A DNA stretch of 32,685 bases from Thermodesulfobacteriota bacterium. GTDB lineage: Bacteria > Desulfobacterota > Desulfuromonadia > Desulfuromonadales > Geopsychrobacteraceae. The stretch covers positions 1 through 32,685 of the forward strand of contig JANQIN010000010.1 in the NCBI GenBank assembly GCA_028282145.1. Direction: 5' to 3'. Below the pieces are notes generated by a model. It was not told where the DNA came from. It did no database searches and saw nothing but the letters and a program-made list of their open reading frames with translations. Positions 3,100 through 32,509 of the stretch are shown in pieces. Numbering within the stretch: the stretch's first letter is position 1; each line of letters starts with the position of its first letter. A program made the position numbers and the translations under genes.

Positions 3100-4116
3100 T
3101 TACAGGTCGAAACGCCACTGGGCACCAAAATACAGAGTCTGGTCACCGTCGGAGCCGTCTTTTTCATCCAGGTTGTCGTTGAAGGTGATGGTGGGCTTGA
3201 TGGTGAAGCCTTTGGTCACCTTGTAGTGCAGGTCGACATAGTACTGGATCTGGTCGTCGTCGGTCTCACCAGCAACACCGGTGTCGGTGGTCAGATAACC
3301 CACACCACCGGCGATCTTCAGTTTGTCACTGAGCTTGGCAGTAGCAGCAATAAAGCCGGCCAGAGTATCAGCATCATCGTCGGTTGCAGCGGTGTAGGAA
3401 GCATTGGGAGCTGAAACAGAGATTTCTTCCAAGTTCTGACCGTAGTAGATTTTGGCAGCGATAGAAGCGGGACCGACAGGCACTTCACCCTGAGCATAGA
3501 TGAAGTAGGTGTCGGCGTCGTTACCGGCAGTCTTTTCGTAGGAAGCATAACCGACACCGGCACCGACAGAAGCAGCACCGATCTTACCGTCATAACCGGC
3601 GGCGAGGATCGGGTACTCGATGTCGTCAACATCAACGTTGTCGTTACGCTGGTCGATCAGGGAGACGTACAGACCGGCGTCCAGACGCAGAGTCACCTGA
3701 GAAGAGCGAGGAATGGACAGAGCACCGTAGCCGGCACCGTCGTTGTCCTGGCCGGCAACGGAACCGTAACCCCAGTCAAAAGCAGCGTAGTCCTGACCGA
3801 TGGTCAGGGTACCGGGACCGAAATCGTAAACAGCGTAGGCCAGACGCAGGGAAACAGTGTTACCGTTGTCGGAGTCTTTCAGACCCATCTCAACCTGACC
3901 GGAAACCTGGTCGGACACCTTGAACTTCACACCAAGGCGAGTGTTGCCTTGCAGACCGAAGTCCAGATCGGTAGTGTCGCCGGAACCGGCCTTATCGACG
4001 TCGACATACATGGTCTCATAACGGATCGAAGCGTAAGGCTTCGCTTCGGCAAATGCCATCGCGGGGACGGCGGCGGCCACCAACAGGGCAACCAGGGATA
4101 CAATAGACTTCTTCAT
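3100..4116 (-). CDS. outer-membrane porin 1 (Gram-negative porin family)
   Basis: A 338-residue protein. The start MKKSIVSLV at 4116 was chosen because ggagg lies 9 nt upstream; the longer frame to 4161 has no such site. Signal peptide of about 22 residues, cleaved near AFA/EAKPYASIR. The rest is alternating beta-strand sequence with acidic D/G/N-rich loops, ending in WRFDL, as in 16-stranded trimeric porins. The block SRLGVKF-type strand, KVSDQVSG, DSDNGNTV and YDFGPGTLTIGQ is nearly identical in the two porins at 4679 and 5954, so the three are paralogues; this copy is the most diverged. It would form a diffusion channel for small hydrophilic or anionic solutes. A Fur-like site lies about 410 nt upstream. 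Confidence 0.88.
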   Translation of the reverse strand: MKKSIVSLVALLVAAAVPAMAFAEAKPYASIRYETMYVDVDKAGSGDTTDLDFGLQGNTRLGVKFKVSDQVSGQVEMGLKDSDNGNTVSLRLAYAVYDFGPGTLTIGQDYAAFDWGYGSVAGQDNDGAGYGALSIPRSSQVTLRLDAGLYVSLIDQRNDNVDVDDIEYPILAAGYDGKIGAASVGAGVGYASYEKTAGNDADTYFIYAQGEVPVGPASIAAKIYYGQNLEEISVSAPNASYTAATDDDADTLAGFIAATAKLSDKLKIAGGVGYLTTDTGVAGETDDDQIQYYVDLHYKVTKGFTIKPTITFNDNLDEKDGSDGDQTLYFGAQWRFDL

Positions 4117-4524
4117 TTTTTCTCTACCTCCTGAGTAGAAAGAATCCGATGGCCAATCCATCGGCGGAAAACGGAAACATAATCTTCAAGTCGCCCTCAT
4201 AAGGGGCTTACATATCGCCCATCATCATAGGTGATTATGGCGGATGTTTACCATGTGTCCTTCCTGCGGCGCAAGTGTTTTCGGCGCCACGGAAGATCGC
4301 TTTCATGTGGTTCTTATGCAACATTTGAGGACAATATCAAGCCACCTTTGCCCTCCTTTCAAAACACTGCAATCTACTTGCCAACAATTACCAATTCTGC
4401 AAAACCCGCAACAGGACTCTTTTCCTCCAAACCGGCCCGCCATAAAGCCTGGAATTTTTGCATAAATTTTGCCCAGCGCGCCCAAAAAGACGCCCCGGTG
4501 TGAGCCTCTTTAAGGAGTTTTCGT

Positions 4525-4543
4525 GAAAATGGTTGTCATTTTC
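4525..4543. promoter_or_regulatory. Fur-box-like palindrome
   Basis: The 19-mer at 4525-4543 is a perfect inverted repeat, gaaaatg-gttgt-cattttc. It matches the classical Fur consensus (GATAATGATAATCATTATC) at 14 of 19 positions by eye and overlaps the -10 region of the minus-strand promoter next to it. Confidence 0.55.
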
Positions 4544-4568
4544 TATATAATCTCTACTCAGATGTCAA
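4540..4568 (-). promoter_or_regulatory. sigma-70-like promoter, probably for porin 1
   Basis: A perfect -35 TTGACA (4563-4568, minus strand), with either TAGAAA (17-nt spacer) or TATAGA (15-nt spacer) as -10. The overlap with the Fur-like palindrome suggests iron repression. The first supported gene downstream is porin 1. Confidence 0.5.
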
Positions 4569-4626
4569 CAACTATCGTTTCCCGTCCAGGGGCAACGCCT
4601 ACAAGCTTCGCCATCGATGAAAAAAA

Positions 4627-4655
4627 AAGCACCCCGAGAAAATCTCGGGGTGCTT
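4627..4655 (-). terminator. rho-independent terminator of porin 2
   Basis: Stem aagcaccccgaga/tctcggggtgctt, then eight or more T on the minus strand. It closely resembles the terminator of porin 3. Confidence 0.92.
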
Positions 4656-4678
4656 GACTGGCGGGCAGATCAATCACC

Positions 4679-5677
4679 TTACAGGTCAAATTGCCACTTG
4701 GCACCGACCCAAAGGGTATTATCATCATCCCCGGAACCGGCCTTGTCCAGGCCAAGCTGATAGGCTATTTCCGGGACGATGGTAAATCCCTTAGTGAGCT
4801 TGATCGGAGCATTTACAAAGACGAGGGCTTCGTCGTCATCCTGACCGGAAGCCGCCTCGGTTTCGTTGTATGCGCCACCAACGGAGACAGCAAGCAGATC
4901 ACTGGGATAGAAGGTTGCCGACAGGAAAAGCCCCAGAGTGTTCAGATCGCCACCCGTGGAACCCAGCTTGAAACCACCGCCCAGCAGGTTCTTGGTGTCA
5001 TCGCCATAGACAATGCGAGCTTTAAGTTTGGCCATCGCAAGCTTGGCTTCCAAATCACCCATCAGGGCCCAAGATTCCTCGTCGATGGGAGTGGTGTCAT
5101 CAGCAGTCACATAGGCACCGTGCAGACCGAAGGAAACGACACCGGCCTTCCCTTTGTAGCCGACAGCCACCTCAGGAATCTCGACGTCATCGTCAGAGCT
5201 TCCAAGGGTGTTATCGATCAGAGCGACATAAAAACCGTTGTCCAAGACCACACGGATCTGGGCGGCACGGTTAGCCGCAGAACCGTAATCACCACCGGCC
5301 GCATCATTATAGATAACAGGGAAAAAGGTGGTATAAGGAGCCCAGGTTTGCCCGATCAATAGTTTCCCGGGGCCGAAATCATACTGCCCGAACGCATGGC
5401 GCAACCCAACAGCGTTGCCGTTGTCGGAATCCTTCAGAGACAATTCAACCATTCCAGACACTTGGTCCGACACCTTAAACTTCACGCCAACCCGGGACGA
5501 ACCATAAAGGCCGAAAAGAAGGTCCGTGGAATCTCCACCGGAACCATCCTCGTCAGACACATTCTTATAAAAGGTCTGAAAGCGCACCGACGCATAAGGT
5601 TTCGCCTCGGCAAAAGCTGCCACAGACCAGACAGACGCCAATACAACAGCAAAGAGCACAACAGAAATCTTTTTCAT
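4679..5677 (-). CDS. outer-membrane porin 2 (Gram-negative porin family)
   Basis: A 332-residue protein. The start MKKISVVLF at 5677 is supported by gggagg 9 nt upstream. Signal peptide of about 23 residues (cleaved near AFA/EAKPYASVR), then beta-barrel sequence ending in GAKWQFDL. It is closer to porin 3 than to porin 1: both share IGQTW.PY..FFP, the AANRAAQ(I/V)R block, VEIPE(V/I)A(V/I)GYKGKAG and the same C-terminus. Loops rich in D, G and S differ most, as expected for surface-exposed parts. Its own promoter candidate and terminator indicate separate transcription. Substrate preference cannot be read from the sequence. Confidence 0.88.
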   Translation of the reverse strand: MKKISVVLFAVVLASVWSVAAFAEAKPYASVRFQTFYKNVSDEDGSGGDSTDLLFGLYGSSRVGVKFKVSDQVSGMVELSLKDSDNGNAVGLRHAFGQYDFGPGKLLIGQTWAPYTTFFPVIYNDAAGGDYGSAANRAAQIRVVLDNGFYVALIDNTLGSSDDDVEIPEVAVGYKGKAGVVSFGLHGAYVTADDTTPIDEESWALMGDLEAKLAMAKLKARIVYGDDTKNLLGGGFKLGSTGGDLNTLGLFLSATFYPSDLLAVSVGGAYNETEAASGQDDDEALVFVNAPIKLTKGFTIVPEIAYQLGLDKAGSGDDDNTLWVGAKWQFDL

Positions 5678-5778
5678 ACGCTTGTTTCCTCCCAAGAAAA
5701 GTTTGAAAGACCCCGAGACAGACACCAGGGCTTTCATATATATCCGCCAGCCTCAAACAAATGCACATTAACCCCGCA

Positions 5779-5808
5779 TATATAATTATTATGTTTTTAC
5801 AATGCCAA
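5779..5808 (-). promoter_or_regulatory. promoter candidate for porin 2
   Basis: On the minus strand TTGGCA (5803-5808), an 18-nt A/T-rich spacer and TATATA (5779-5784), about 100 nt upstream of the porin 2 start. Confidence 0.4.
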
Positions 5809-5898
5809 AACCCTGAATGCAAGGAATTCCCGGGAGATTACGAGATTTTCTTCTTTTGCCCTTAACGCATGATCAATGTGGATTTACACGGCAAAAAA

Positions 5899-5926
5899 AA
5901 GCGCCCCGGGAAATCCCGGGGCGCTT
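5899..5926 (-). terminator. rho-independent terminator of porin 3
   Basis: A perfect 12-bp stem (aagcgccccggg/cccggggcgctt) with a 4-nt loop, followed on the minus strand by a T run. Confidence 0.93.
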
Positions 5927-5953
5927 GGCTGGCAGACAGAGTGTGAGCGGATC

Positions 5954-6979
5954 TTACAGGTCAAACTGCCACTTGGCGCCGACGAACAGAGCGTTGTCAG
6001 CACCGTTGGTGGTGGAAGCGCCACCGATACCGGCTACGTCGAGAGCGTCAACATAGGCGATTTCGGGAACAATGGTGAAGCCTTTGGTCACTTTGATCGG
6101 AGCGTTCACCCACAGGGTCAGCTCATTGTTGTCGTCGCCGGCAGCAGCTTCGGTTTCGTTGTAAGCACCACCAACGGTCACAGCAATCTTGTCGCTGGGG
6201 TAGAAGGTAGCGGAAGCGATAACGCCATAGGAGTCCAGGTCACCGGAGGTGGTGCCGGTGGACAGAGCGAAACCACCACCGGTCAGGCGGTTAACGTCTT
6301 CGCCGAAGAAAGCGCGGGCCATCAGCTTGACAGCGCCAAGCTTGGCGGTGATGTCACCCATGACAGCGTAACCTTCTTCGTCAGCGCCGGTGTCGTCAAC
6401 GGATACGTAAGCACCGTGGATACCGAAGCCGACGTTGCCGGCCTTGCCTTTGTAACCGATAGCGATTTCGGGAATTTCAACGTCGTCATCGGTGGTACCA
6501 GCAGTGTTGTCGATCAGGGCGATGTACACGCCAGCGTCCAGAGTCAAGCGAACTTGAGCGGCACGGTTGGCAGCGGAACCTTGGCGCAGGCCTGCGGTGT
6601 CATCATACACCTGGGGGAAGAAGACGGAGTAAGGCATCCAGGTCTGACCGATCAGCAGGGTGCCTGCACCGAAGTCGTACTTACCGAAAGCGTGACGCAG
6701 ACCAACAGTGTTGCTGTTGTCGGAGTCAAACAGACGCAGTTCAACCAGGCCGGACACTTCGTCAGAAACCTTGAATTTCACGCCGACACGGGAAGTACCG
6801 GTGTGCAGCAGACCGAAACGGAGATCGCTTACGTCAGCGCTACCGGCAACGGAATCTTCGAAGGAGGTGTACATAGTTTGGAAACGAATAGAAGCATAAG
6901 GCTTAGCTTCAGCAAAAGCAGTGGCGGTCCAAGCAGCGGCCAGAACCAGAGTCAGCAGAACAACGGAAAGCTTTTTCAT
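5954..6979 (-). CDS. outer-membrane porin 3 (Gram-negative porin family)
   Basis: A 341-residue protein. The start MKKLSVVLL at 6979 is supported by caggagg 9 nt upstream; a longer frame to 7039 has none. Signal peptide of about 23 residues, cleaved near AFA/EAKPYASIR, then beta-barrel strands ending GAKWQFDL. Very similar to porin 2 along its length, with a distinct loop near the C-terminus (GIGGASTTNGADN). Codon use is biased and uniform, which together with the strong ribosome site and terminator suggests a highly expressed major outer-membrane protein. It is the first of three tandem copies on this strand, each with its own terminator. Confidence 0.88.
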   Translation of the reverse strand: MKKLSVVLLTLVLAAAWTATAFAEAKPYASIRFQTMYTSFEDSVAGSADVSDLRFGLLHTGTSRVGVKFKVSDEVSGLVELRLFDSDNSNTVGLRHAFGKYDFGAGTLLIGQTWMPYSVFFPQVYDDTAGLRQGSAANRAAQVRLTLDAGVYIALIDNTAGTTDDDVEIPEIAIGYKGKAGNVGFGIHGAYVSVDDTGADEEGYAVMGDITAKLGAVKLMARAFFGEDVNRLTGGGFALSTGTTSGDLDSYGVIASATFYPSDKIAVTVGGAYNETEAAAGDDNNELTLWVNAPIKVTKGFTIVPEIAYVDALDVAGIGGASTTNGADNALFVGAKWQFDL

Positions 6980-7155
6980 GGGATTCTTTCCTCCTGAGAA
7001 AGAAATGAGTTTCGGGTCAGCGAACCACCATGTCCGCATAAACCCAAGGCCTGCCAGCCATTAAACTCGCGAAAAAAACCTAACAGACATCTGCATGATG
7101 CCGTGCCCCTCAGCAAAACAGCGTTTTCCCAGACGGGGCATCAGCGACTCATTAA

Positions 7156-19107: not shown

Positions 19108-20358
19108 ATGCTGCTGGAGAACATCCCCCTGCTCCACATCCTCTCAACCCTGGTGTGGTTGCTCCACTTTCCGCTGGCCGCTCTTTTTATCGGGATGGGC
19201 CTTGTCGCCCTGATCTCCCGTCTGTACGGTCAGCTCGATCGCGAACATCATCGATTTCGCCTCAGCGACCTATTGCTGGAACGTCTTCCGGGCTTCAAAT
19301 CCGGCCTGTTGCTTCTGGCGACCCTGGGATTAAACCTCTGGGTACTTCGGCTCCATTATCCGGCCCTGCCGATCCCCTTCCTTTACTGGCTGGTGGTGCT
19401 GGGAGTTCTGGCCTCGGGAGTCTGGCTGATCCATCTGTCCCGTTATTTGTTCCAGCGCCAGTTCAACGATCCGTTCAGCTACCTCATCGGCTTTATCGGG
19501 GTCGCCCAGATTGCCGCTGTCTACTTTCTGATTCTCTGCGGCGCAGGACTTCTTCTCTCCCCCGAGACATGGCCCCTTCTGGGGCAACAGCCTCTTCTTT
19601 ATCTCTCTTGGAACGGCGTGGCCCAATTTGGGCAGTTCATGGCTCTGGTTCCGACTCTGACCGCCGGTATCGTGCTGCTACTGGGGCGTCTGGGGGACAA
19701 CCCCTGTGAAAACTTCCGCCGCTTTACCGAGCGCTGTGCCGTCGTGGTGGCTCTGCCGGCCCTGCTTGCCCTGCCGGCCCTGCTGGTTTTCGGCCTTAAC
19801 ACGGCCCCAACCCTGGCCTGGTCCTGGCCGCTGATCCTCCTGCTGGCTCTGCTGATCGTTCTGGCGGCGCTGGTGGCCTTGGTTCTGGTGCAACCGCTGC
19901 TCGGTGGCGGACCGGCCCGTTCCGGTCTCATTGCATCGATCGGCCTGGCCCTCTTCCCGCTATGGGTCTTTAAAACCATTGCCGGTCAAGCAGTCGTTCT
20001 GACCCCCTATACTTTGGATACCAGCCTTTTGTACCAGAAGGTCCCACTGGAAGCGCGTCTGGGAACCGCCTCTAAGAAGCCTGTCGAGAAAGAGGAAAAG
20101 GCCCCCAAGATCGACCTGGCTCGCGGTGAGAGGGTCTTTAAGTCGATCTGTGCCACCTGCCATGCTTGGGATAAAAAGGTCGTCGGACCGTCCTATGCAT
20201 CGGTGGTACCCAAGTACAAGGGGAATGTGGACAGCTTGAAAGACTTCATCCGCAACCCTGCCAAGATTAATCCGGACTACCCGGCCATGCCCAATCTGGG
20301 ATTGTCGGAGCGTGATATTGATGCAGTGGCCCATTATCTGCTGAGTCAGGTGAACTGA
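19108..20358 (+). CDS. ACIII-associated membrane protein fused to a C-terminal monoheme cytochrome c
   Basis: A 416-residue protein. Residues 1 to about 310 hold roughly eight hydrophobic segments (first about 8-36, last about 275-300). A charged linker (KKPVEKEEKAPK) follows, then a class I cytochrome c domain from about 335: heme site CATCH (Cys348-His352), downstream AMPNLGLSERDIDAVAHYLL with the likely Met axial ligand. The canonical ACIII has a separate lipoprotein cytochrome, ActE; here the cytochrome is attached to a membrane domain. The domain does not look like NrfD to me; a distant bd-oxidase or other heme-membrane relation cannot be excluded. actA follows after 1 nt. Ribosome site aggga 7 nt upstream. 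Confidence 0.8.
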   Translation: MLLENIPLLHILSTLVWLLHFPLAALFIGMGLVALISRLYGQLDREHHRFRLSDLLLERLPGFKSGLLLLATLGLNLWVLRLHYPALPIPFLYWLVVLGVLASGVWLIHLSRYLFQRQFNDPFSYLIGFIGVAQIAAVYFLILCGAGLLLSPETWPLLGQQPLLYLSWNGVAQFGQFMALVPTLTAGIVLLLGRLGDNPCENFRRFTERCAVVVALPALLALPALLVFGLNTAPTLAWSWPLILLLALLIVLAALVALVLVQPLLGGGPARSGLIASIGLALFPLWVFKTIAGQAVVLTPYTLDTSLLYQKVPLEARLGTASKKPVEKEEKAPKIDLARGERVFKSICATCHAWDKKVVGPSYASVVPKYKGNVDSLKDFIRNPAKINPDYPAMPNLGLSERDIDAVAHYLLSQVN

Positions 20359-20359
20359 T

Positions 20360-20893
20360 ATGCGATTGAAAGAGCTCAACTGGACCCGACTGATCATAAC
20401 CGGAATAATTCTGGGGCTTTTCGGCCTTTTTCTGGGAATTCTGGCAGCCCAGACCGGTTGGTGGCAACTGTACGCCCAGACGCCGGAGCAGCCGATCGAT
20501 TTCCCGCACACCAAGCATGCCGGGCAACTGGGCTTGGCCTGCACCTACTGTCATATTCATGTAGAAAAAAGCCGGGAAGCAGGCGCACCGCCTTTGTCAA
20601 TCTGTATGGGCTGTCATCAGAAGATCGCCACCGACAAGCCCGAAATTCAGAAACTGACCCGGTACTACAACGAAAAGAAACCGGTTGAATGGGGGCGAAT
20701 TCATAACCTTCCGTCCTTTATCTACTTTTCGCACAAACGCCACCTGAAAGGAGGCGTTGACTGCAGCAACTGCCATGGCGCCGTCAAACAAATGGCGGAG
20801 GTCAAACAGGTTCGGCCACTGAAAATGGGATGGTGCGTCAGCTGTCATCGCACGTACGACGCCCCCCTGGAATGTTCCACCTGTCATAAATAG
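20360..20893 (+). CDS. actA: ACIII pentaheme cytochrome c subunit (ActA-like)
   Basis: A 177-residue protein with an N-terminal membrane anchor/signal (about 11-30, LIITGIILGLFGLFLGILAA) and five CxxCH heme sites: Cys61-His65, 82-86, 135-139, 159-163 and 172-176. It belongs to the cytochrome c7/c3-like family. ActA of alternative complex III is also a pentaheme protein held by one membrane helix; its hemes carry electrons from the quinol site toward the monoheme cytochrome. It begins 1 nt after the previous stop, with aggtga as ribosome site. The next gene, actB, is 183 nt away across a palindromic element. Confidence 0.88.
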   Translation: MRLKELNWTRLIITGIILGLFGLFLGILAAQTGWWQLYAQTPEQPIDFPHTKHAGQLGLACTYCHIHVEKSREAGAPPLSICMGCHQKIATDKPEIQKLTRYYNEKKPVEWGRIHNLPSFIYFSHKRHLKGGVDCSNCHGAVKQMAEVKQVRPLKMGWCVSCHRTYDAPLECSTCHK

Positions 20894-20914
20894 TGTCTGG
20901 ATGGCACTGAACAT

Positions 20915-21056
20915 GTTTTCAGATCGGTAACGAGGAATTTTTCGTTGTGGCAAGGAAATCAAGAGCTTGCGCGGAGGTGTAGTACTTTTACTCCGCACAA
21001 GCAAGTTCGCAGATTGACACAGCCACAGCGAAAAAGGGCCGTTTCCGAATGAAAAC
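20915..21056. repeat. 142-nt imperfect palindrome inside the ACIII operon (element 2)
   Basis: Arms begin gttttca and end tgaaaac. The halves are inverted copies: aatttttcg-type and cgttgtgg/ccacagcg blocks pair. The centre is an 11-bp near-perfect stem cttgcgcggag/ctccgcacaag (20966-20976 with 20991-21001, one mismatch). The length (142 against 140 nt) matches element 1 at 10970-11109, and the hexamer gcaagg lies at the same offset, 35 nt from the left end, in both. It would form a large RNA hairpin between actA and actB. Confidence 0.75.
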
Positions 21057-21076
21057 TTAAATAGGGTATCGCTTTT

Positions 21077-23812
21077 ATGGAACGACGTTCATTCCTGCAA
21101 ATACTTGGCATGTTTTCCAGTGCTACCGTGCTTTCCAGCTGTGGCTCGGAAAAAGACCAGAAGAAGTTGATTTCCTACCTTGTCCCACCGGAGGACGGTG
21201 TCATCCCCGGTGAGGCAACCTGGTCGTTCAGCAGCTGCCAGGAATGCGCTGGTGAGTGCGGCCTCCTGGTCCGAACACGCGAAGGATATCCGGTCAAGCT
21301 GGAAGGGCTGCCGGGACACCCGGTGAACGATGGCCGACTCTGTATGCGCGGTCAAGCCGCCTTATCCCGCCTGTATCAGAACGAGCGCATTCAGACCCCA
21401 CTGAAGAAAACCGCTTCCGGTTTCGAGCCAGTCCCCTGGGACGAAGCCTTAAATCAGATTCGACAAGCACTCCAGCAGGAAGGGCAACATCTCTACCTGT
21501 CCGGGCATACCAGCGGTAGCCTTCGGAGCCTGATCGACCGGTTTTGCCAGCGTTTCAAGGCCGACTACCTGCCGCAGTTCGAACTCCTGAATCAGGCGTC
21601 AGTCCGTGAAGCCAACGCGCTCCTTTTCCGTCAGAGGGCGCTTCCGGGTGTCCACCTGAAAGAGGCCGATCTTTTGCTGACCCTGGGGGCTGATGTTCTC
21701 GACAGCCACACCAACCCCGTAGACTGGGGACGCCAACTGGTGGAAGCCCACGAAGAGCCGGGATTTCACTGGACTCATATCGAATCTCAGGCCAGCCTGA
21801 CGGGTGTGAATGCCGATCAGCGTCTGACCCTCAAGCCCGGCAGCGAATCTCACCTGCTGACTTTCCTGCTTAATCTGGTCGTTGAGAAGGGCGGAAAACG
21901 GCCCCTGCCAGACGACTTTCTCAAGGTCCTCCCCGACCTTTCGGTAGAAGAGGCAGCGACCGCCACCGGTCTGTCCAGTGGAGATCTGACCCGCCTGGGA
22001 CAGCGCTTCCTCGCAGCCAAACGCCCGGCCCTGGTCGTCGGCGGGACCGCCACCACACGCGAAGAAGGTCTACAGACAGCTCTTCTCGCCGGACTGATCC
22101 AGTGGTGTTGCGGAATGATCGGCACCACCATCGATTTCGGGCTATCCATGGCGACCCGTTGGGGAGATCAACGGGATCTGACCCGTCTACAGACCGATCT
22201 GGAGACAGGAAAGGCCGGCGTCGTCTTTTTGAGCCGCACCGGACTGGCCAGCGGTCTTCCGTCGACCCACCCGGCGCTGACGGCCTTGCCCAAAGCCAAA
22301 CTTCGTGTCGGCCTTGGCCTGACACTTGACGCGACTCTGGAACAGTGCGATCTGATCTTGCCGATTCACCACGGTCTCGAGAACTGGGGTGATACCGAGC
22401 CGCGCCAGGGGAGTTACGGTCTTTTGAAACCGGCTCTGGAGCCTCAGTTTGCTTCCCGCGCCGAAGGCGATATCCTGCTCGATCTGATGCAGAGCCCCAA
22501 GAGCTGGCAGGAGTTCCTGTTTGAACAGTGGGAAGCCCGCTTTAGCCAGGCCGAGCTGAAACGATTCTCCGAACAGGGTTATATCGAAAAACCGGTCAAG
22601 CAGGGCGCCTATCTGGAACGCAAGGCCGCAAAGGCTCTCCAGCCCCTGGCTCCTGTTCCGGAAGAATTGCAGATGCTGCTGGTGCCCTCGGTCCGCGGGG
22701 GTGACGGCCGCAGCTACGAGATGCCATTGCAGCAGGAGATCCCCGACCCGTTGACCACCATCAGCTGGGGCCAGTGGCTGTCGGTCAGCCCCGAACTGGC
22801 TGCAGAAAAAGGATGGCAGGATCGGGACATGGTCCTGGTCAAACTGGACGGCTGGGAAACCACCCTGCCGATCAAAACCCAGCCGGGGCTTCCCAAAGAA
22901 ACCCTCTGTGTCCAACTGGGGCTGCTGGACAGTCTGCCGCCAATAACGGCTAACGCGGCCGGGGAACCGGTTCTCGCTTACGCGGTTCAGTCGCTGACTC
23001 GGGCCAAGGGAGAGGGGCCGTTGCCAATCCTTTCCGGTTCCCCATCTCAGGATGGCCGAGGGATTATTCCCGACCCGGTCCATCACGACGACCACCACAA
23101 ACATTACTCCATCTATGAGGAGCATGACCGCCCCAACTACAACTGGGGGATGGTGATCGACCTGGAGAAATGTGTCGGCTGCTCGGCCTGTGTCGCCGCC
23201 TGCTATGTGGAAAACACGGTACCCATCGTCGGCCCCGAAGACCATCGGGATGGTCGGGAGATGTCCTGGCTGCGGATCGAACCCTATTACGACGATCACG
23301 GCAAGGTCGAGTTCCTGCCGATGATGTGCCAGCAGTGCCTCAAAGCTCCCTGCGAGCCGGTCTGCCCGGTCTACGCCGCGTACAACAGCAAAGAGGGGTT
23401 GAATATTCAGGTCTACAGCCGCTGCGTCGGCACCCGCTACTGCGCCAACAACTGTCCCTACAAGGTGCGCCGCTTCAACTGGTTTGATCACGTCCCCGAA
23501 GGCAACCTGCAACGGATGAAAAACCCGGATCTGGCCGAGCGCACCAAAGGGATGATGGAAAAATGCACCTTCTGTATTCAGCGGATTCGTCAGGCGAAGG
23601 ATACCGCCAAGGATGAGGAACGGCTGGTGCAGGACGGCGAGGTCATTCCGGCCTGTGCCCAGACCTGCCCGTCCGGCGCCATCACCTTCGGCAATCTGTT
23701 GGACAAGGAATCCAAGGTCTACAAGCTGACGAAATCCAAGCGGGCCTACAAGGTCCATGATCTGCTGGGAACCGATTCGTCGGTCACCTATCTGAAACCC
23801 GGCAAACACTAG
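21077..23812 (+). CDS. actB: ACIII molybdopterin-oxidoreductase-like / iron-sulfur subunit (ActB-like), Tat lipoprotein
   Basis: A 911-residue fusion typical of ActB. The N-terminus has a twin-arginine motif (ERRSFLQ, 2-8) and a lipobox (VLSSC, Cys22). Residues about 45-620 form a molybdopterin-oxidoreductase-like domain. The domain carries C-x2-C-x3-C-x27-C (Cys54, 57, 61, 89), the usual [4Fe-4S] site of such enzymes; known ActB structures, as I recall, bind no cofactor in this half. Residues about 685-870 form a four-cluster ferredoxin domain: C-x2-C-x2-C-x3-C from Cys699, then CQQCLKAPCEPVC, CVGTRYCANNC and KCTFC/CAQTC. It relays electrons between the quinol site and ActA. Ribosome site aggg about 10 nt before the ATG. 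Confidence 0.92.
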   Translation: MERRSFLQILGMFSSATVLSSCGSEKDQKKLISYLVPPEDGVIPGEATWSFSSCQECAGECGLLVRTREGYPVKLEGLPGHPVNDGRLCMRGQAALSRLYQNERIQTPLKKTASGFEPVPWDEALNQIRQALQQEGQHLYLSGHTSGSLRSLIDRFCQRFKADYLPQFELLNQASVREANALLFRQRALPGVHLKEADLLLTLGADVLDSHTNPVDWGRQLVEAHEEPGFHWTHIESQASLTGVNADQRLTLKPGSESHLLTFLLNLVVEKGGKRPLPDDFLKVLPDLSVEEAATATGLSSGDLTRLGQRFLAAKRPALVVGGTATTREEGLQTALLAGLIQWCCGMIGTTIDFGLSMATRWGDQRDLTRLQTDLETGKAGVVFLSRTGLASGLPSTHPALTALPKAKLRVGLGLTLDATLEQCDLILPIHHGLENWGDTEPRQGSYGLLKPALEPQFASRAEGDILLDLMQSPKSWQEFLFEQWEARFSQAELKRFSEQGYIEKPVKQGAYLERKAAKALQPLAPVPEELQMLLVPSVRGGDGRSYEMPLQQEIPDPLTTISWGQWLSVSPELAAEKGWQDRDMVLVKLDGWETTLPIKTQPGLPKETLCVQLGLLDSLPPITANAAGEPVLAYAVQSLTRAKGEGPLPILSGSPSQDGRGIIPDPVHHDDHHKHYSIYEEHDRPNYNWGMVIDLEKCVGCSACVAACYVENTVPIVGPEDHRDGREMSWLRIEPYYDDHGKVEFLPMMCQQCLKAPCEPVCPVYAAYNSKEGLNIQVYSRCVGTRYCANNCPYKVRRFNWFDHVPEGNLQRMKNPDLAERTKGMMEKCTFCIQRIRQAKDTAKDEERLVQDGEVIPACAQTCPSGAITFGNLLDKESKVYKLTKSKRAYKVHDLLGTDSSVTYLKPGKH

Positions 23813-23834
23813 CGCCACGAGAGAATTGCTGCCC

Positions 23835-25133
23835 ATGAATTCACTGGATTATCGCAATCAGATCGAAACCGATGTTCTCGCGGCCATGGGGCGTCCTGGC
23901 CTCAAGTATCTCGCGGCCATGGGCTTCTGTGCTCTGCTGGTTCTGGGGCTGCTGGCCTGCTGGGGCTATCAGATCTTTACCGGTCTCGGAGTCGCCGGCA
24001 TCACCCATCCTGTCGGCTGGGGGGTCTATATCACCAACTTTGTCTTCTGGGTCGGGATCGCCCACTCGGGGACACTGATCTCGGCGGTGCTCTACCTGTT
24101 CCGCCAGCCGTTTCGCTCGAGCTTCAACCGGGCGGCCGAAGCGATGACCGTTGTCTCGTTGTTGGTTGCCGGTCTTTTCCCGCTGATTCACCTGGGGCGG
24201 GTCTGGAACTTTTACTACCTCTTCCCCTACCCGAACCAGCGCCTGTTGTGGGTCAACTTCAAGTCGCCCCTGATCTGGGACGTCTTCGCCGTCTCCACCT
24301 ACCTGACCGTCTCCTGCATCTTCTTCTACGTCGGCCTGTTGCCCGATCTGGCAATCGTCCGCCGCCGGGCCACCGGCTTCACCCAGAAGGTGTTCAACAT
24401 CCTGTCTCTTGGATGGCAGGGGACACTGCGCCAGTGGAAGCATTACAATAAGCTCTACCTGTTTCTGGCCGCCTTCGCCACCCCGCTGGTGGCCTCAGTC
24501 CACTCCATCGTGTCCTGGGACTTTGCTGTCTCCATTGTCCCTGGCTGGCATACCACCATCTTCGCTCCCTACTTCGTTGCCGGCGCGATCTTCTCCGGCA
24601 TCGGGATGGTGCTGACACTGATGATCCCGCTGCGTAAAGCGTTGAAGCTGGAACAGTACATCACCCTGGATCATTTCGATTCGATCTGTAAGATCCTGCT
24701 CTTTACCTCGCTGATCATCGGCTTTACCTACGCCTTTGAGTTCGCTCTGGCCTTCTACAGCGGCCACAAATCGGAGATCAGCCAGTATCTCTATCGCGCC
24801 ACCGGTCACTACTGGCCGTTCTACGCCATCATGGTCTTCTGTAACGGGATCTTCCCGCTGGTGTTGTTTAAAAAGTCCCTGCGCCGCAACCTGAAGTTCC
24901 TCTTCGTGCTTTCGATCTTCGTCAATATCGGCATGTGGTTCGAGCGCTTTGTCATCATCGTCGCTTCGCTGGCCAAAGAGTATCAGCCCTATTCCTGGGG
25001 CACCTACACCCCCAGCTGGGTGGAGATGGGTATCACCGCCGGATCGTTCGGCCTGTTCTTCCTGGTCTACCTGGCCTTTATCAAGGCCCTGCCGGTCCTG
25101 TCGATGACGGAGTTGAAGGAGCCCCACCAATGA
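23835..25133 (+). CDS. actC: ACIII NrfD-like quinol-binding membrane subunit (ActC-like)
   Basis: A 432-residue integral membrane protein of the NrfD/PsrC family with about ten hydrophobic segments, for example LAAMGFCALLVLGLLACW and FVFWVGIAHSGTLISAVLYLF. In ACIII this subunit holds the periplasm-side menaquinol site and contacts the [3Fe-4S] end of ActB. I prefer ATG 23835 (MNSLDYRNQ) over the TTG at 23826. It lies 22 nt after actB, and its stop overlaps the actD start (ATGA), so the genes are tightly coupled. Conserved polar residues in helices that could form the proton path cannot be confirmed by eye. Confidence 0.9.
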   Translation: MNSLDYRNQIETDVLAAMGRPGLKYLAAMGFCALLVLGLLACWGYQIFTGLGVAGITHPVGWGVYITNFVFWVGIAHSGTLISAVLYLFRQPFRSSFNRAAEAMTVVSLLVAGLFPLIHLGRVWNFYYLFPYPNQRLLWVNFKSPLIWDVFAVSTYLTVSCIFFYVGLLPDLAIVRRRATGFTQKVFNILSLGWQGTLRQWKHYNKLYLFLAAFATPLVASVHSIVSWDFAVSIVPGWHTTIFAPYFVAGAIFSGIGMVLTLMIPLRKALKLEQYITLDHFDSICKILLFTSLIIGFTYAFEFALAFYSGHKSEISQYLYRATGHYWPFYAIMVFCNGIFPLVLFKKSLRRNLKFLFVLSIFVNIGMWFERFVIIVASLAKEYQPYSWGTYTPSWVEMGITAGSFGLFFLVYLAFIKALPVLSMTELKEPHQ

Positions 25134-25564
25134 GTCAGCGTTTCAGCTTTGAACAGGAACAGGATTTCATGGACAAGCTTCGGGAACTGCTGCACAGCGG
25201 CACCGATCCCAAACAGATCGAGCTCCATATGCCCTACCCGCCCCACGGTATCGAAGAGCTGATGGGTGAAAAGGAGAGCTGGGTCCGGTTCTTCTCCCTC
25301 GGGGGAGCCGTCACCGGTTTTCTTACCGGCCTCGGCTTTGCCAGCTTCACCGCCCTCTGGTGGCCGCTGATCACCGGTGGCAAGCCGATCCTGTCCCTGC
25401 CTCCCTATCTGCTGATCGGGTATATCCTGACCATCCTCTTCGGGGCACTGGCGACCTTCGGCGGCTTCCTGCTTCTGGCCCGGATGCCCAGCGTCAAACG
25501 GATGACCGGCCCGGAGCAGTTCGGCAATGAATTTGTGATTGAGGTGGAAGGAGAGACCCCATGA
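25130..25564 (+). CDS. actD: ACIII small membrane subunit (ActD-like, DUF3341)
   Basis: A 144-residue protein. The start MSQRFSFEQ overlaps the actC stop (ATGA) with aaggag 8 nt upstream; the longer frame to 24935 runs inside actC and is not used. The N-terminal part has the DUF3341 pattern YPPHGIEEL, then two membrane helices (about 50-75 and 87-110) joined by a short loop, ending in a hydrophilic tail. ActD is the two-helix accessory subunit of alternative complex III. Its stop overlaps the next start by ATGA. Confidence 0.9.
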   Translation: MSQRFSFEQEQDFMDKLRELLHSGTDPKQIELHMPYPPHGIEELMGEKESWVRFFSLGGAVTGFLTGLGFASFTALWWPLITGGKPILSLPPYLLIGYILTILFGALATFGGFLLLARMPSVKRMTGPEQFGNEFVIEVEGETP

Positions 25565-26601
25565 CCGTCCGCCTGACCCCGATGAACTACTATGCCACCC
25601 TCGCGACCCTCATCGCTTCGATGGCGCTGATCGAATACGGCGGTATCGCCGGCAATCCCGGCGCACTGCTGGTAACTCTGGTCTGGTGGACCGGCCTGCT
25701 GCAGGGGGCCATTGCTGTGGTTGCCATCAGCGACCTGCTCAACACCAAATGGATCAAGTACCTGCGTCACGAACTACTGTCGATGAGCCGCCTGTTGATC
25801 ATCCCGCCGGCGCTTTTTCTGCTCTTTCTGCCGCAGATGGATAAATACCCCTGGTTTGCCAAACCACCCCATCTGTGGCTCGATCCAAGCTTCTTTTTCT
25901 GGCGCAACCTGATCGTGCTGCTGATCTGCTATGGCCTTGGGCGCGTGTTTGCTCAGAAGTCGATCAACAATGCACCGGACAAGGTCAAATGGGGAATATT
26001 CTACCTCTTCGCCTTCGCCGCCTGCCAGAACCTGGTGGCAGTCGATTGGATCATGTCCCTTGAATGGCCCTGGTTCAGCACCTTGTTCGGGCCGTTCTTT
26101 GCCATCGAATCCATCTATACCGCCTTTATCTTCTCCGCCTTCCTTTTCTGTATCTCGATCAACCAGAAAAAGGAAATCGATCCCATCGACGCCCCCTTAC
26201 GCATGGGAGATATCGGCACCCTGATCTACGGCTTCAGTATCCTCTGGGGCGGCTTCTTCTTCGCCCAGTTTCTGCTGATCTGGTACGGCAACCTCCCCGA
26301 GGAGGTCGGTTATATCGTCACCCGGATCAACGATCCGTTTACTCCGATGGCCTATGCTTTCGTTATCATGGTTTTTGCCCTTCCCTTTGCCTTGCTGACA
26401 CCCGGGGAGAACAAGCGCAAGGCCAAAACCCTGATTCCGGCAGCGATCCTGGTCACCTTTGGTCTCTTTACCGAAAAAACCCTCTATGTGGTTCCCGTGA
26501 TCCCCTTTGATCGTGGTATCCTGATCCTTGAAAATTCACTGTTGGTCGCGGTGCTGATGTTGGTCATCCACAGCCGGGACCTGTTGTTGGTTAAGAAGTA
26601 G
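25561..26601 (+). CDS. actF: ACIII second NrfD-like membrane subunit (ActF-like)
   Basis: A 346-residue integral membrane protein with about ten hydrophobic segments, for example WWTGLLQGAIAVVAISDLL and LIYGFSILWGGFFFAQFLLIWYGNLPEE. It resembles ActF, the second NrfD-like subunit, which packs against ActC. It is somewhat shorter than ActF proteins I know (about 400 residues), which may mean trimmed termini. Start by ATGA overlap with actD, ggagaga as ribosome site. It closes the operon: next comes an unrelated lipoprotein gene. No gene for a terminal oxidase, CbaA-type or copper protein follows. Confidence 0.85.
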   Translation: MTVRLTPMNYYATLATLIASMALIEYGGIAGNPGALLVTLVWWTGLLQGAIAVVAISDLLNTKWIKYLRHELLSMSRLLIIPPALFLLFLPQMDKYPWFAKPPHLWLDPSFFFWRNLIVLLICYGLGRVFAQKSINNAPDKVKWGIFYLFAFAACQNLVAVDWIMSLEWPWFSTLFGPFFAIESIYTAFIFSAFLFCISINQKKEIDPIDAPLRMGDIGTLIYGFSILWGGFFFAQFLLIWYGNLPEEVGYIVTRINDPFTPMAYAFVIMVFALPFALLTPGENKRKAKTLIPAAILVTFGLFTEKTLYVVPVIPFDRGILILENSLLVAVLMLVIHSRDLLLVKK

Positions 26602-26647: not shown

Positions 26648-28129
26648 ATGTTCCGCCGAACTGTTATTCTCTGCAGTTTCCTTGCTCTCACCGGATGCAG
26701 CACGACACTTCCCCCTTGGCCAGCGGCCGATTTGCGCGACCCGAACTGTGTTCAGCTCTACCAGGAGATGGACCAAGCTGTCGCCAATGCCGATGTCCGA
26801 AATGCCGCCGGAGAACCGATTGACGGTTTCCCCTACCTGCGGGTGAACCGTTTTCTTGCCGATATGGCCTCCAGACTTGAGACCTCTGAAGATGGTGACC
26901 TCTGGCTGCAGCAGACGTCTCAATTCGATCTGCAGCTTCGATTTCTGGAATATCGCACTCTCCCTCCCAGTTCCGACTTTAAACAGAAATGGGACCATGA
27001 GGGGATCTTCCAGGACCATTTGACGTTGTGTACAGGCCTTCTCGCTGGAACCGATCGCAATCAACCGGACTTCTGGGGTCAGATGGTCTCACGAAGTCGG
27101 GTTCCTGACGATTATATCGGGGCCTATCGGGTGCCTCTTTACCCTCTTACCGTCCTTCCGGTTGCCGTTCTTACGGAAAGGGCACGGGAGACCTTCACCG
27201 ATTGGTTCGCCACTCCCTGGGAACAACAAGCGAACCAGGGGACCCTGATCCGTTACACTCCGGATTATCGGCCTTCCTTGAACCGGCAACAACGGCAGGC
27301 AATCCTTTCTCGATCTGCCAATAACCGACTGGAGTGGCCCCTTCCTTCTCGGGAAGACACCCTCCTTCTGCTAGCCAGTCTGGCGCCGGAACTTTATGTC
27401 GACCAGACAGCCCCCTACGACAAGATTGTCTCTCCAGTCTGGCAGGAGGAAGTACTGGAGTTCGACAACCGAAACACCCCGGTTTACACCTACCTCAGCC
27501 ATACTTGGTGGCAGGGGCGACCGCTCCTTCAGTTGAACTATTCCTTCTGGTACTCGGCGCGAGAGGGTGACAATGCCCCCTGGATCGAAAAGGGGCCGCT
27601 GGACGGGATGACGATCCGCTTGACTCTTTTGCCGGACGGCCGTATCGGCCTGATTGATCTGATGAACAGTTGCGGCTGTTATCATGCCGCCTTTCCCGGG
27701 CCACAGATGAAGGTTAAACCGAGGGAAGAGGGATTGAAACCGGGCCTCTTCTCGCCGATCCCTCTACCGAAAGGCGCGGAGGACGGTTTTCTTCGCCTGA
27801 GGATCAACAGCGGGTGGCATCAGATCACCCAGATCAGCGATCAAAGCCACGCATCCGATCAAACCCGTCCTTACCAACTTCGTCCCTACGAAGAGTTGGA
27901 GGCCCTGCCCGTTCAGAACGGATATCGGAGTCTTTTCCGGCCGGATGGTGTTGCACGGGGATCGGAACGGATCGAATACCTGTTGCTCTTTTCTCTCGGA
28001 GTTCCTGATGTCGGCAGCATGCGGCAACGGGGCAACCACCCCATCAGTCTGATCGGGCGAGACCAATTTGACGACCCGGATTTCCTGGAGCGATATTTCA
28101 TCCCCGAATCGGTCCCTGAAAAGAATTGA
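26648..28129 (+). CDS. unrecognised lipoprotein, 493 residues
   Basis: Signal peptide with lipobox LTGC (Cys17 by my count from MFRRTVILC), so a lipid-anchored envelope protein. The start MFRRT at 26648 is preferred over 26633 because ggag lies 9 nt upstream. The mature part is about 475 residues with no membrane helix. Distinct blocks are HTWWQGRPLLQLNYSFWY near the middle and LPDGRIGLIDLMNSCGCYHAAFP, whose CGCYH might bind metal; it is not a CxxCH heme site. It follows the ACIII genes by 46 nt, but nothing else ties it to them. I recognise no family. Confidence 0.7.
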   Translation: MFRRTVILCSFLALTGCSTTLPPWPAADLRDPNCVQLYQEMDQAVANADVRNAAGEPIDGFPYLRVNRFLADMASRLETSEDGDLWLQQTSQFDLQLRFLEYRTLPPSSDFKQKWDHEGIFQDHLTLCTGLLAGTDRNQPDFWGQMVSRSRVPDDYIGAYRVPLYPLTVLPVAVLTERARETFTDWFATPWEQQANQGTLIRYTPDYRPSLNRQQRQAILSRSANNRLEWPLPSREDTLLLLASLAPELYVDQTAPYDKIVSPVWQEEVLEFDNRNTPVYTYLSHTWWQGRPLLQLNYSFWYSAREGDNAPWIEKGPLDGMTIRLTLLPDGRIGLIDLMNSCGCYHAAFPGPQMKVKPREEGLKPGLFSPIPLPKGAEDGFLRLRINSGWHQITQISDQSHASDQTRPYQLRPYEELEALPVQNGYRSLFRPDGVARGSERIEYLLLFSLGVPDVGSMRQRGNHPISLIGRDQFDDPDFLERYFIPESVPEKN

Positions 28130-28230
28130 TAGACTCTGTCTATTTATCCTTGAAAAAGGTGGCGACCCTGTCTAATATACCGTCTATGGTGTAGCTCCGG
28201 CTAGCCACCACTAGATATGGGGGAGTTGCA

Positions 28231-28305
28231 ATGAAGGAATGCAAGGCATGCGGCAAGGCCTACAGCTCCGCCTGTAGACAGTGTCGCACCAGCAAAAAGA
28301 AATGA
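28231..28305 (+). CDS. 24-residue double-CxxC microprotein
   Basis: A very short gene: ATG 28231, TGA 28303-28305. The product has two CxxC pairs, ECKACGK and SACRQC (Cys4, Cys7, Cys15, Cys18), and ends in a basic tail (RTSKKK), a minimal zinc-ribbon. The ribosome site gggggag is 5-6 nt before the ATG, and a good terminator follows 15 nt after the stop. The isolated promoter-RBS-frame-terminator pattern makes it a plausible gene despite its length. Zinc binding and nucleic-acid contact are inferences. Confidence 0.6.
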   Translation: MKECKACGKAYSSACRQCRTSKKK

Positions 28306-28319
28306 AATCTGCTGGATTC

Positions 28320-28349
28320 AGGCCGCCTACCGTCGAAGGCGGCCTCTTT
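28320..28349 (+). terminator. terminator after the 24-residue microprotein gene
   Basis: A perfect 9-bp stem aggccgcct/aggcggcct with an 8-nt loop, followed by ctttcttt. Confidence 0.8.
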
Positions 28350-28402
28350 CTTTGATTCCACATCCCATCCCTGGGGTGTGAAACGTTTGTTTCGCAAAAA
28401 AA

Positions 28403-28420
28403 AGAGGCCGAGTGGCCTCT
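28403..28420 (-). terminator. bidirectional terminator before the DJ-1 family gene stop
   Basis: A 7-bp stem agaggcc/ggcctct with a gagt loop. T runs follow in both directions (eight T on the minus strand, ccttttttctt on the plus strand), so it can serve both converging genes. Confidence 0.85.
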
Positions 28421-28443
28421 CCTTTTTTCTTATCTCCAATTCT

Positions 28444-29118
28444 TTATAACAACGCCAGTAGTTTTTGAGCGACAGCCACCGACGAGGCCGGGTTCTGACC
28501 AGTCACAAGGCCTTTATCTTCCACGGCCAGTTCGCCCCAGTCTTCTGTCCGGACAAAATTTCCGCCCAACCGGGTCAGTTCATCCTCCAGAGAAAAAGGC
28601 ACAACCTCGGTCAATTCAATCGCCGCTTCTTCGCTGTTGGTAAACCCGGTCACCTTCTTGTCCTCCACCAGTGGATCACCATCGGGTGTTCGAGCCTTTA
28701 AGAACGCGCAGGGTCCGTGACAAACAGCCGCAACCGGTTTACCGGCTGCAATAAAGGCGTTAATCAGCCCGATCGATTGCGGGTCGTTGGCCAGATCCCA
28801 CAGCGGTCCATGCCCTCCGGGGAAGAACAGTGCATCGAAATCTTCCGCATAGACCTCGGTCAGACGGACCGATTGATCAAACTGCCATTGTGCATCTGAA
28901 TCATCGGCAAACTTGCGAGTCGCGTCGGTCTGGACCTCGTCGGCCAGACTCCGGGGATCGATAGGAGGTCGACCTCCTCGAGGAGAAGCCAGCACAACTT
29001 CAGCACCGGCATCAAGGAAGGTGTAGTACGGGGCAGCGAATTCTTCCAGCCAGACCCCGGTTTTATGATCGGTATCCCCAAGCGTGTCGTGGGATGTAAG
29101 TACGATAAGGATGTTCAT
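28444..29118 (-). CDS. DJ-1/PfpI (class I glutamine amidotransferase-like) family protein
   Basis: A 224-residue protein of the Hsp31/YDR533C-like branch. MNILIVLTSHD opens the first strand, then an acidic elbow near WLEEFAAPYYTF (Glu25-26), FFPGGHGPLWDL (98-109) and the nucleophile elbow AVCHGP with Cys133 and His134. Members are stress-related: methylglyoxal glutathione-independent glyoxalase III or chaperone, or deglycase. The exact activity is unsettled in the literature and not readable here. The start at 29118 has ggaggga 4 nt upstream and matches the family; the frame to 29244 is leader. The phosphohexomutase gene ends 86 nt upstream, so cotranscription is possible. Confidence 0.88.
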   Translation of the reverse strand: MNILIVLTSHDTLGDTDHKTGVWLEEFAAPYYTFLDAGAEVVLASPRGGRPPIDPRSLADEVQTDATRKFADDSDAQWQFDQSVRLTEVYAEDFDALFFPGGHGPLWDLANDPQSIGLINAFIAAGKPVAAVCHGPCAFLKARTPDGDPLVEDKKVTGFTNSEEAAIELTEVVPFSLEDELTRLGGNFVRTEDWGELAVEDKGLVTGQNPASSVAVAQKLLALL

Positions 29119-31072: not shown

Positions 31073-31690
31073 ATGAAACTCAAAACATGTATTGTAATTC
31101 TGGCACTGCTCGCTTTCGCTGCACCGGCCCTGGCAGCGCCGATAACCTTCTTTGAGATGCAGAGCAATGGATCGTATGTCGTTCCCAAAGGGAATTATTA
31201 TTACGATCTGACCAATTCATCCATTACCGGCAGGAACAGCTACTCCTCCAACAGCACCTACTACCAGAATTCGCCGACCTTCAACATCAACTACCCGACA
31301 GGTTACTGGACTCTGAACTTCTCCACCCACGAACTGGGCGGCCCGATGACCGTTGGTCTGTATGACGACGCGACCCGTTTCCCCTTTGAAAAAAATGGGG
31401 TTCCCGGTCTGAACCTCTACGGCAACGGCCGCGGCAACAACACCCTGACCGGCTCCTTTGAGGTTTTCGACATCCTTTATGCCGGCAACACCCTGCTGAG
31501 ATTCGCTGCTACCTTTGAGCAGAACGACCTTATTTTCGGCCGAATCTCCTATAATTCGGAAGCCTTCTCCACCGCTCCTGTCCCGGAACCGGCAACGATT
31601 CTGCTGCTGGGCTCCGGCCTCGGTGGTCTGGTCTGGTTCCGCCGGAGAGCACAACAAAGCAGAGTTCCGCTGAAAAGAACATCCAAATAA
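31073..31690 (+). CDS. PEP-CTERM sorting-domain exported protein
   Basis: A 205-residue exported protein. Signal peptide about 1-22 (LLAFAAPALA), a mature region rich in N, S, T, Y and G (for example TGRNSYSSNSTYYQNS), and a C-terminal sorting signal: VPEPATILLLGSGLGGLVWFRRR, that is a PEP motif (about residues 170-172), a hydrophobic helix and a basic end. Such proteins are processed by exosortase (EpsH-type) and usually linked to exopolysaccharide or biofilm. No exosortase gene is in this window, so it is an orphan target. Ribosome site agaaagg about 9 nt upstream of the ATG; a strong terminator follows at once. Confidence 0.88.
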   Translation: MKLKTCIVILALLAFAAPALAAPITFFEMQSNGSYVVPKGNYYYDLTNSSITGRNSYSSNSTYYQNSPTFNINYPTGYWTLNFSTHELGGPMTVGLYDDATRFPFEKNGVPGLNLYGNGRGNNTLTGSFEVFDILYAGNTLLRFAATFEQNDLIFGRISYNSEAFSTAPVPEPATILLLGSGLGGLVWFRRRAQQSRVPLKRTSK

Positions 31691-31881: not shown

Positions 31882-32006
<125 letters not shown>

Positions 32007-32008
32007 AT

Positions 32009-32509
32009 TTATTCGGTTTTTTCAGCCTTTTTCGCGGCCTTACGAACTTTGTTCCGTTCCCGCAATCCTTCGAAAAAGTCCCTTAGCAAGCCAGAGCACT
32101 CGTCATGCAGTACCCCTTCGGTCACATCCACCTTGTGGTTGAACCGGTCATCCTGCGAAAAGTCGTAGATCGAGCCGACGGCACCAACCCGGGGATCGCG
32201 GCAGGCATAGACCAGCCGGGGAATCCGGGCCAGGATGATCGCCCCCATGCACATCACGCAGGGTTCCAGGGTGACGTACAGGGTGGTGTCGAGAAGCCGC
32301 CAGCTGCCGAGTTTCTCGGCTGCCTGTTTGATCGCGATCATCTCGGCATGGGTAGTGGGGTCCTGCGATGTCTCCCGCAGATTGTGCCCCCGCCCGACGA
32401 CCTCACCGTCGTAAACGACAACGGCCCCGATGGGAACCTCGCCCAGCTGTTGAGCAGCTTGGGCCTCCACCAGGGCCTGTTGCATAAAACCCTTGTCCTG
32501 CTCGTTCAC
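32009..32509 (-). CDS. tadA: tRNA-specific adenosine-34 deaminase
   Basis: A 166-residue zinc deaminase that turns A34 of tRNA-Arg(ACG) to inosine. Catalytic motifs: THAEM (His54, Glu56) and PCVMC (Cys84, Cys87), the zinc ligands, plus the TadA-type RDPRVGAVGSIYDF. I start it at the GTG at 32507-32509 (gagg 5 nt upstream), which gives the usual N-terminus; the first ATG is internal at MQQALVEA. Length 166 is normal (E. coli 167). The gene runs straight into tRNA-Ser on the same strand. Confidence 0.93.
   Translation of the reverse strand: MNEQDKGFMQQALVEAQAAQQLGEVPIGAVVVYDGEVVGRGHNLRETSQDPTTHAEMIAIKQAAEKLGSWRLLDTTLYVTLEPCVMCMGAIILARIPRLVYACRDPRVGAVGSIYDFSQDDRFNHKVDVTEGVLHDECSGLLRDFFEGLRERNKVRKAAKKAEKTE

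Follow-up and report, generated by a model that had tools for sequence, protein, structure and literature searches.

Does a frame of only 24 codons with two CxxC pairs encode a protein and, if so, what would such a protein do? This question is raised by an ORF on the forward strand of the stretch of DNA analysed here (the window; 32,685 nucleotides), which comprises a complete contig of a genome of 3.24 Mb in 278 contigs. The initial annotation had described a gene shorter than usual annotation limits, with a strong ribosome site, a compact frame and a terminator, and with two CxxC pairs 7 residues apart followed by a lysine tail. These features can all be read directly or predicted at the locus:

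28150–28178, plus strand: predicted sigma70-like promoter TTGAAA-17-TAATAT (consensus scan, 9 of 12 positions)
28219–28225, plus strand: Shine-Dalgarno (SD) site GGGGGAG, 5 nt upstream of the ATG (direct sequence reading)
28231–28305, plus strand, stop included: 24-codon gene of a C4 (CxxC-x7-CxxC) microprotein (reading frame, relatives, purifying selection, and conservation that does not extend beyond the ORF)
28320–28355, plus strand: predicted intrinsic terminator, 9-pair stem and T-rich tail (consensus scan)

Translation of the ORF yields MKECKACGKAYSSACRQCRTSKKK, i.e., 24 residues and then a stop, with CxxC pairs at residues 4–7 and 15–18, a spacer of seven residues and a KKK tail. The stem of the terminator occupies 28320–28345 and is followed by CTTTCTTTGA. 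It should be noted that the consensus scan returned two promoter-like sites in 28000–28500, that at 28150–28178 included, against a shuffle mean of 0.4, and three terminator-like sites, 28320–28345 included, against a shuffle mean of 0.7. The chance control for the ORF itself consisted of 60 first-order Markov copies of the window, so that its scope is the window rather than the whole genome. These copies contained a mean of 0.08 ORFs of 15–50 aa with CxxC-x5..12-CxxC, and the combination of an ATG, an SD-like site and two CxxC pairs in an ORF of this size, which occurs once in the window, was found in none of them. The only other matches to the two-CxxC pattern in the window are two start codons in the frame of a 177-aa ORF (20360–20893), without an SD-like site. 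We infer that the ORF is transcribed and translated.

The distribution of relatives is narrow. A single-sequence search of 195 relatives returned 68 genomes at E ≤ 1, mostly as weak matches; the returned loci were read individually, and 15 readable microprotein genes were counted, namely the window gene and 14 others (E 5.0e-7 to 8.3e-4). The carriers are the window genome (G000, family f1), three genomes of family f5 (G047, G086, G093) and those of family f12 (G054, G079, G096, G101, G105, G114, G120, G126, G129, G130, G132), all within one order, judged to be Desulfuromonadales. Of 44 genomes in f1, the family of the window, one has the gene, as do 3 of 5 in f5 and 11 of 22 in f12. At E ≤ 0.01, a profile made from the 15 genes, which matches those 15 by construction, picked out 20 of the order's 136 genomes: the 15 carriers, a decayed copy in G134, and G107, G113, G013 and G057. 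The last four were left out of the count as longer, phage-like or weak matches; the match of G013, a member of f1, spans 15 residues at E 0.0087. At the level of the class, matches at E ≤ 0.01 occurred in 23 of 277 genomes, but those of three genomes outside the order are short and partial and were not counted (E 0.0017–0.0074), and an even draw of 395 genomes of the phylum gave two matches at E ≤ 0.001, the window and G047, both in the order. A scan of the genomes passed 11 of 75 pattern stretches, several loci lying on contigs that are visibly the same by length.

Two further ORFs resemble the family and stand outside the 15. One is a short ORF of G113 (L071:382–534, minus strand) with RCKRCGNAYTGRCRQC, of uncertain kinship to the family, on a stretch that also has an endolysin-family gene. 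The other is a second ORF of G096 (L072, near 5972–6060, minus strand) with CKQCGRHYSGRCRQC, found at E 9.2e-7 and without a clear SD site.

Evidence for a protein product comes from the alignment of the 15 members, which are 23–40 aa in length (24 aa in the window). Residues K5, C7, G8, K9, Y11, C15, Q17 and C18 are invariant, and C4 and A14 nearly so. The four cysteines are kept in 14 of the 15 readable relatives, window included, the exception being G130, with an arginine in place of the first cysteine. Across codons 4–18, pS is 0.81 and pN 0.11 (uncorrected and partly saturated; 91 pairs from 14 genomes, G130 and G134 excluded), and variation at codon positions 1, 2 and 3 amounts to 0.10, 0.06 and 0.37, respectively. 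In the same 14 genomes, mean pairwise identity is 0.73–0.75 over codons 1–15 and 0.59 over codons 16–20, compared with 0.24–0.37 in the 135 nt upstream and 0.24–0.29 in the 90 nt downstream, the flank values being underestimates because the comparison is ungapped and the f12 promoters can be aligned with gaps. In the sequences compared, conservation is confined to the ORF, and the substitution pattern is that of purifying selection. The initial annotation had proposed a search for conservation and synonymous bias, and had set beforehand that unconserved cysteine codons would count against the gene; the outcome on both points is in its favor. Because the relatives keep the protein sequence while the surrounding DNA drifts, the ORF is very probably a real small-protein gene, absent from family libraries; that it is coding is, in our opinion, close to certain.

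The window protein had no family match at E ≤ 0.1 in Pfam, NCBIfam or PHROGs, and a single Pfam match at E ≤ 1, Zn_ribbon_PRDM4, with E 0.33 and below its cut-off. The best PHROGs match among the 15 members reached E 0.035, and NCBIfam gave none. Nine of the 15 weakly match the Pfam double zinc ribbon DZR (PF12773; best E 0.0023), and five match DUF5363 similarly weakly (best E 0.0093). The window protein itself does not match DZR and, unlike a double ribbon, the microprotein has a single set of four ligands. The microprotein family is real and unlisted, and lies within the known class of small zinc-finger proteins.

A structured RNA element at the locus is not supported. The eight Rfam matches at E ≤ 5 all fall below their gathering scores and were rejected. 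The 111 nt of 28130–28240 show slightly stronger folding than shuffled copies (z −1.85, with 9 of 200 copies doing as well), and the 231 nt of 28130–28360, inside which both the ORF and the terminator lie, reach z −3.24 (1 of 200 shuffles), to which the terminator stem contributes. Folding of the window leader did not differ significantly from shuffles (p 0.43); among 16 trimmed leaders, only those of G105 (p 0.007) and G054 (p 0.047) beat shuffles at p < 0.05, and the predicted leader structures vary between genomes. By eye, 28179–28225 (plus strand) and the leaders of the carriers share short stretches of similar sequence behind the −10 box and ahead of the SD site, in part inverted relative to one another.

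The gene neighborhood bears on whether the ORF acts through its product or only in cis. In the window, the microprotein gene lies after a gene run (19108–26601, plus strand), which we take to resemble an alternative complex III (Act) operon, and after a 498-aa ORF. Of the three genes of the run that were tested against Pfam, two had matches, a 911-aa molybdopterin/4Fe-4S protein and a 416-aa cytochrome c protein. The 498-aa neighbor was considered as a linked gene and rejected: of 134 genomes in the order, 11 have a relative of it, window included, and just one of the remaining ten, G086, carries the microprotein gene, which lies on a different contig there. Elsewhere in the window, three successive ORFs of about 350 aa (3100–7039, minus strand) look paralogous by eye, with similar starts and KPYAS motifs, and are perhaps porins; the C-terminal tail of the ORF at 31073–31690 (plus strand) resembles what we take to be a PEP-CTERM sorting signal; and a 74-aa ORF (31918–32142, plus strand) lies across a minus-strand tRNA-Ser gene (31919–32006) and is probably spurious.

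A short cysteine-rich ORF could be a leader peptide, that is, an attenuator or upstream ORF controlling the downstream gene in cis, of which only the codons or the nascent chain matter. Several arrangements suit this explanation. In five f12 loci (L052, L053, L066, L068 and L069, the last with the decayed ORF of G134), a c-type cytochrome gene follows on the same strand, and in the three f5 carriers the ORF precedes a methyltransferase gene (PF10672 in G047, with relatives 59% identical in G086 and 56% identical over 52 residues, up to a contig end, in G093). The window has a terminator after the ORF, and G108, which lacks the ORF, retains a promoter and leader ahead of its cytochrome gene. 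However, the next gene downstream of the window ORF, a DJ-1/PfpI gene (28444–29118), is convergent, as is the next gene in L058, and the downstream genes differ between families, so that the window and the relatives' loci have no constant, regulated same-strand gene directly downstream. Upstream, the three f5 carriers share a related divergent gene (53% and 82% identical to that of G093). Neighbors vary from family to family while the protein persists, with no partner gene common to all contexts seen, and one constant cis target is therefore unlikely. The invariance of the non-cysteine residues K5, G8, K9, Y11 and Q17 and a pN far below pS also speak for a selected protein. Varied neighbors and the convergent downstream gene in the window together argue against a leader peptide, which we consider quite improbable.

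Decay or loss of the gene is seen at the f12 locus in three further genomes. G108 has 17 nt where G132 has 96 nt of the ORF region, its promoter and leader being 92% identical to those of G132 over 112 nt and its cytochrome frame open. G071 has a stop at codon 2 and a tyrosine in place of the third cysteine, while in G134 the start codon is gone and an aspartate replaces the same cysteine; the decay in these two, with its shared changes, may stem from a single event. Some lineages can therefore do without the gene. Nine f12 stretches were fetched downstream of the rubrerythrin gene, which lies near the microprotein gene in several f12 genomes: G071 and G108 have the broken locus there, and G089, G128, G131, G117, G135, G111 and G105 have neither the cytochrome gene nor the microprotein gene at that place, G105 carrying its microprotein gene on a different contig.

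Regarding the product, its conserved cysteine pairs make binding of zinc or another metal likely. A strict need for four ligands is weakened, because G130 lacks the first cysteine. An AlphaFold2 model of the 33-aa G105 member (14 rows) is of low confidence, with a mean pLDDT of 65.8 and a pTM of 0.26; it has two short strands in a β-hairpin and then a helix (residues 15–21) that holds the second CxxC, which hints at a knuckle-plus-helix fold. A profile search of solved structures gave 22 chains at E values of up to 5; most are C2H2 zinc-finger proteins, aligned over 8–12 residues at CxECGK. The earlier interpretation as a microprotein with a minimal zinc ribbon is supported in part: the microprotein gene is strongly supported, and the low-confidence model is not clearly a ribbon.

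Metal binding could also serve another purpose, with the microprotein being a metal buffer, a thiol redox sensor or a minimal rubredoxin-like peptide that serves neighboring ferritin-like (rubrerythrin-family) and cytochrome proteins. Of the 11 f12 genomes in which the microprotein gene is readable, 7 have a rubrerythrin-family gene (PF02915) on the same contig, no more than about 1 kb upstream, as does G134, and the CxxCGxxY of the microprotein presumably resembles the first knuckle of rubredoxin. Against this association, the microprotein and rubrerythrin genes are on separate contigs in G129, G132, G126 and G105 (the microprotein gene of the first three lies near the end of its contig). Moreover, a close rubrerythrin relative (73–100% identity) is present in 20 of the 22 f12 genomes, the other two having distant ones only, whereas 11 of the 22 have no readable microprotein gene, and a motif scan of the three f5 loci found no rubrerythrin-family gene. 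Rubredoxin is a fold of about 50 residues with two widely spaced cysteine pairs; the window protein has 24 residues and a seven-residue spacing, and no rubredoxin was among the 22 solved-structure chains up to E 5. We therefore regard a redox or metal-buffering role beside rubrerythrin as unlikely.

The sparse distribution of the gene, with a single carrier among the 44 genomes of the window's family, suits a phage-derived zinc-finger gene carried between hosts by temperate phages and acting on the expression of host or phage genes. G107 has, in a region resembling a prophage, a 48-aa relative (E 2.3e-8) with the module behind a second cysteine cluster and a Phage_integrase gene about 650 bp away, and a viral contig has a copy of 43 aa that is 79% identical to the G107 relative. 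The G107 protein is 46–50% identical to three aligned cellular members and 38% to the second G096 ORF. These phage-type proteins of 43–48 aa (L070:5928–6071 and L062 near 5001–5066, both plus strand) have the second cysteine cluster before the CxxC-x7-CxxC module; the gene adjoining the viral copy matches metallo-phosphoesterase families, and a gene near the G107 copy matches an endolysin family. A scan of viral contigs passed 4 of 15 candidates, of which L062 is credible; L063, L064 and L065 were dropped, as glycine replaces their fourth cysteine. The scan with the phage type passed 1 of 57, on the same contig as L062. Among the cellular copies, that of G054 has a Phage_integrase gene about 1.2 kb downstream, which may be a later arrival, because in the sister genomes G101 and G114 the microprotein gene occupies a locus of the same type. 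The integrase and an AIPR-family gene (PF10592) downstream of the G054 microprotein gene (L053:7273–9981) probably belong to a mobile element, and we assume that the AIPR-family gene is possibly a defence gene.

Other searches weigh against a phage origin. At E ≤ 1, tblastn found no match in 50,697 phage records, and none to the cellular type in 72,556 plasmid records. For the four ORFs beside the window gene, PHROGs gave no integrase or structural family, two of them matching families of unknown function, and about 20 residues are too few to settle the direction of any transfer. Carriage by temperate phages as the basis of the family is, in our view, rather unlikely.

The reading that we favor, and hold to be reasonably probable, is a trans-acting, zinc-binding C4 microprotein that is probably a small regulator or accessory binding nucleic acid or a partner protein. 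The gene would be separately transcribed to give a product of 24 residues (23–40 in relatives), and the four cysteines of the two CxxC pairs would most likely hold one zinc ion and thereby fold the peptide. The invariant K5, G8, K9, Y11 and Q17, together with the lysine/arginine-rich tail, would form the binding surface, through which the microprotein would dock in trans on a larger protein or a nucleic acid. Its fold, its partner and its part in regulation are what we infer here, and regulation through nucleic-acid or partner binding, taken by itself, is a tentative proposal, perhaps somewhat short of an even chance. A bolder version, improbable as a whole, would place the microprotein among the smallest stand-alone bacterial metal-folded proteins: with about 20 residues in one C4 knuckle, it would regulate its host in trans, and temperate phages of related bacteria would carry it too, with another cysteine cluster in front of it and their integrase nearby, which would let it pass from host to host and alter gene expression there. 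A family that combines clear selection, cysteine conservation and natural losses offers a clean test of the minimum size of an independently folding, functional metal protein, and the family suggests that more such microproteins occur in these bacteria and their phages.

A limited literature search found no paper on this microprotein family. The initial annotation had called stand-alone proteins of this kind rarely described, which is only partly borne out: small CPxCG-type proteins are a described class (PMC2253796; PMC10716476), while those under 70 aa have hardly been studied, according to one account (PMC6562870), and a preprint that deals with bacterial microproteins refers to one predicted zinc-binding fold (PMC11188072). 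Annotation usually misses genes of this size, and the window gene is also under the 30-aa floor of the six-frame survey that defined the class.

As given in that survey, small CPxCG-related zinc-finger proteins have fewer than 100 aa and two cysteine pairs 7–40 residues apart, at least one pair being CPxCG-like, with CxxCG allowed (PMC2253796). The microproteins (24 aa in the window, 23–40 aa among members) are well below the upper length limit, and the window protein has CKACG, followed after seven residues, the lower limit of spacing, by CRQC; CxxCG occurs in 14 of the 15 members and is absent in G130. The docking role suggested above is one that has been proposed for the haloarchaeal small CPxCG-related zinc-finger proteins. 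Among these, the studied case is Brz of Halobacterium salinarum, whose gene lies directly upstream of bop and in whose absence bop mRNA is reduced (PMC2253796). The microprotein is like Brz and its class in being short, with two cysteine pairs and a stand-alone gene, and unlike the class as surveyed in its length of 24 aa, in its finding here within one bacterial order and in a regulatory role that is so far only proposed (PMC2253796). A second counterpart, likened here from sequence features and not by homology, is HVO_0758 of Haloferax volcanii, which differs in its 56 aa and extra N-terminal helix, and for which zinc binding, a structure solved by NMR and phenotypes upon deletion have been demonstrated (PMC10716476). 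Like the microprotein, HVO_0758 is a stand-alone four-cysteine microprotein, rich in lysine and arginine and conserved within one taxonomic group (PMC10716476; PMC6562870).
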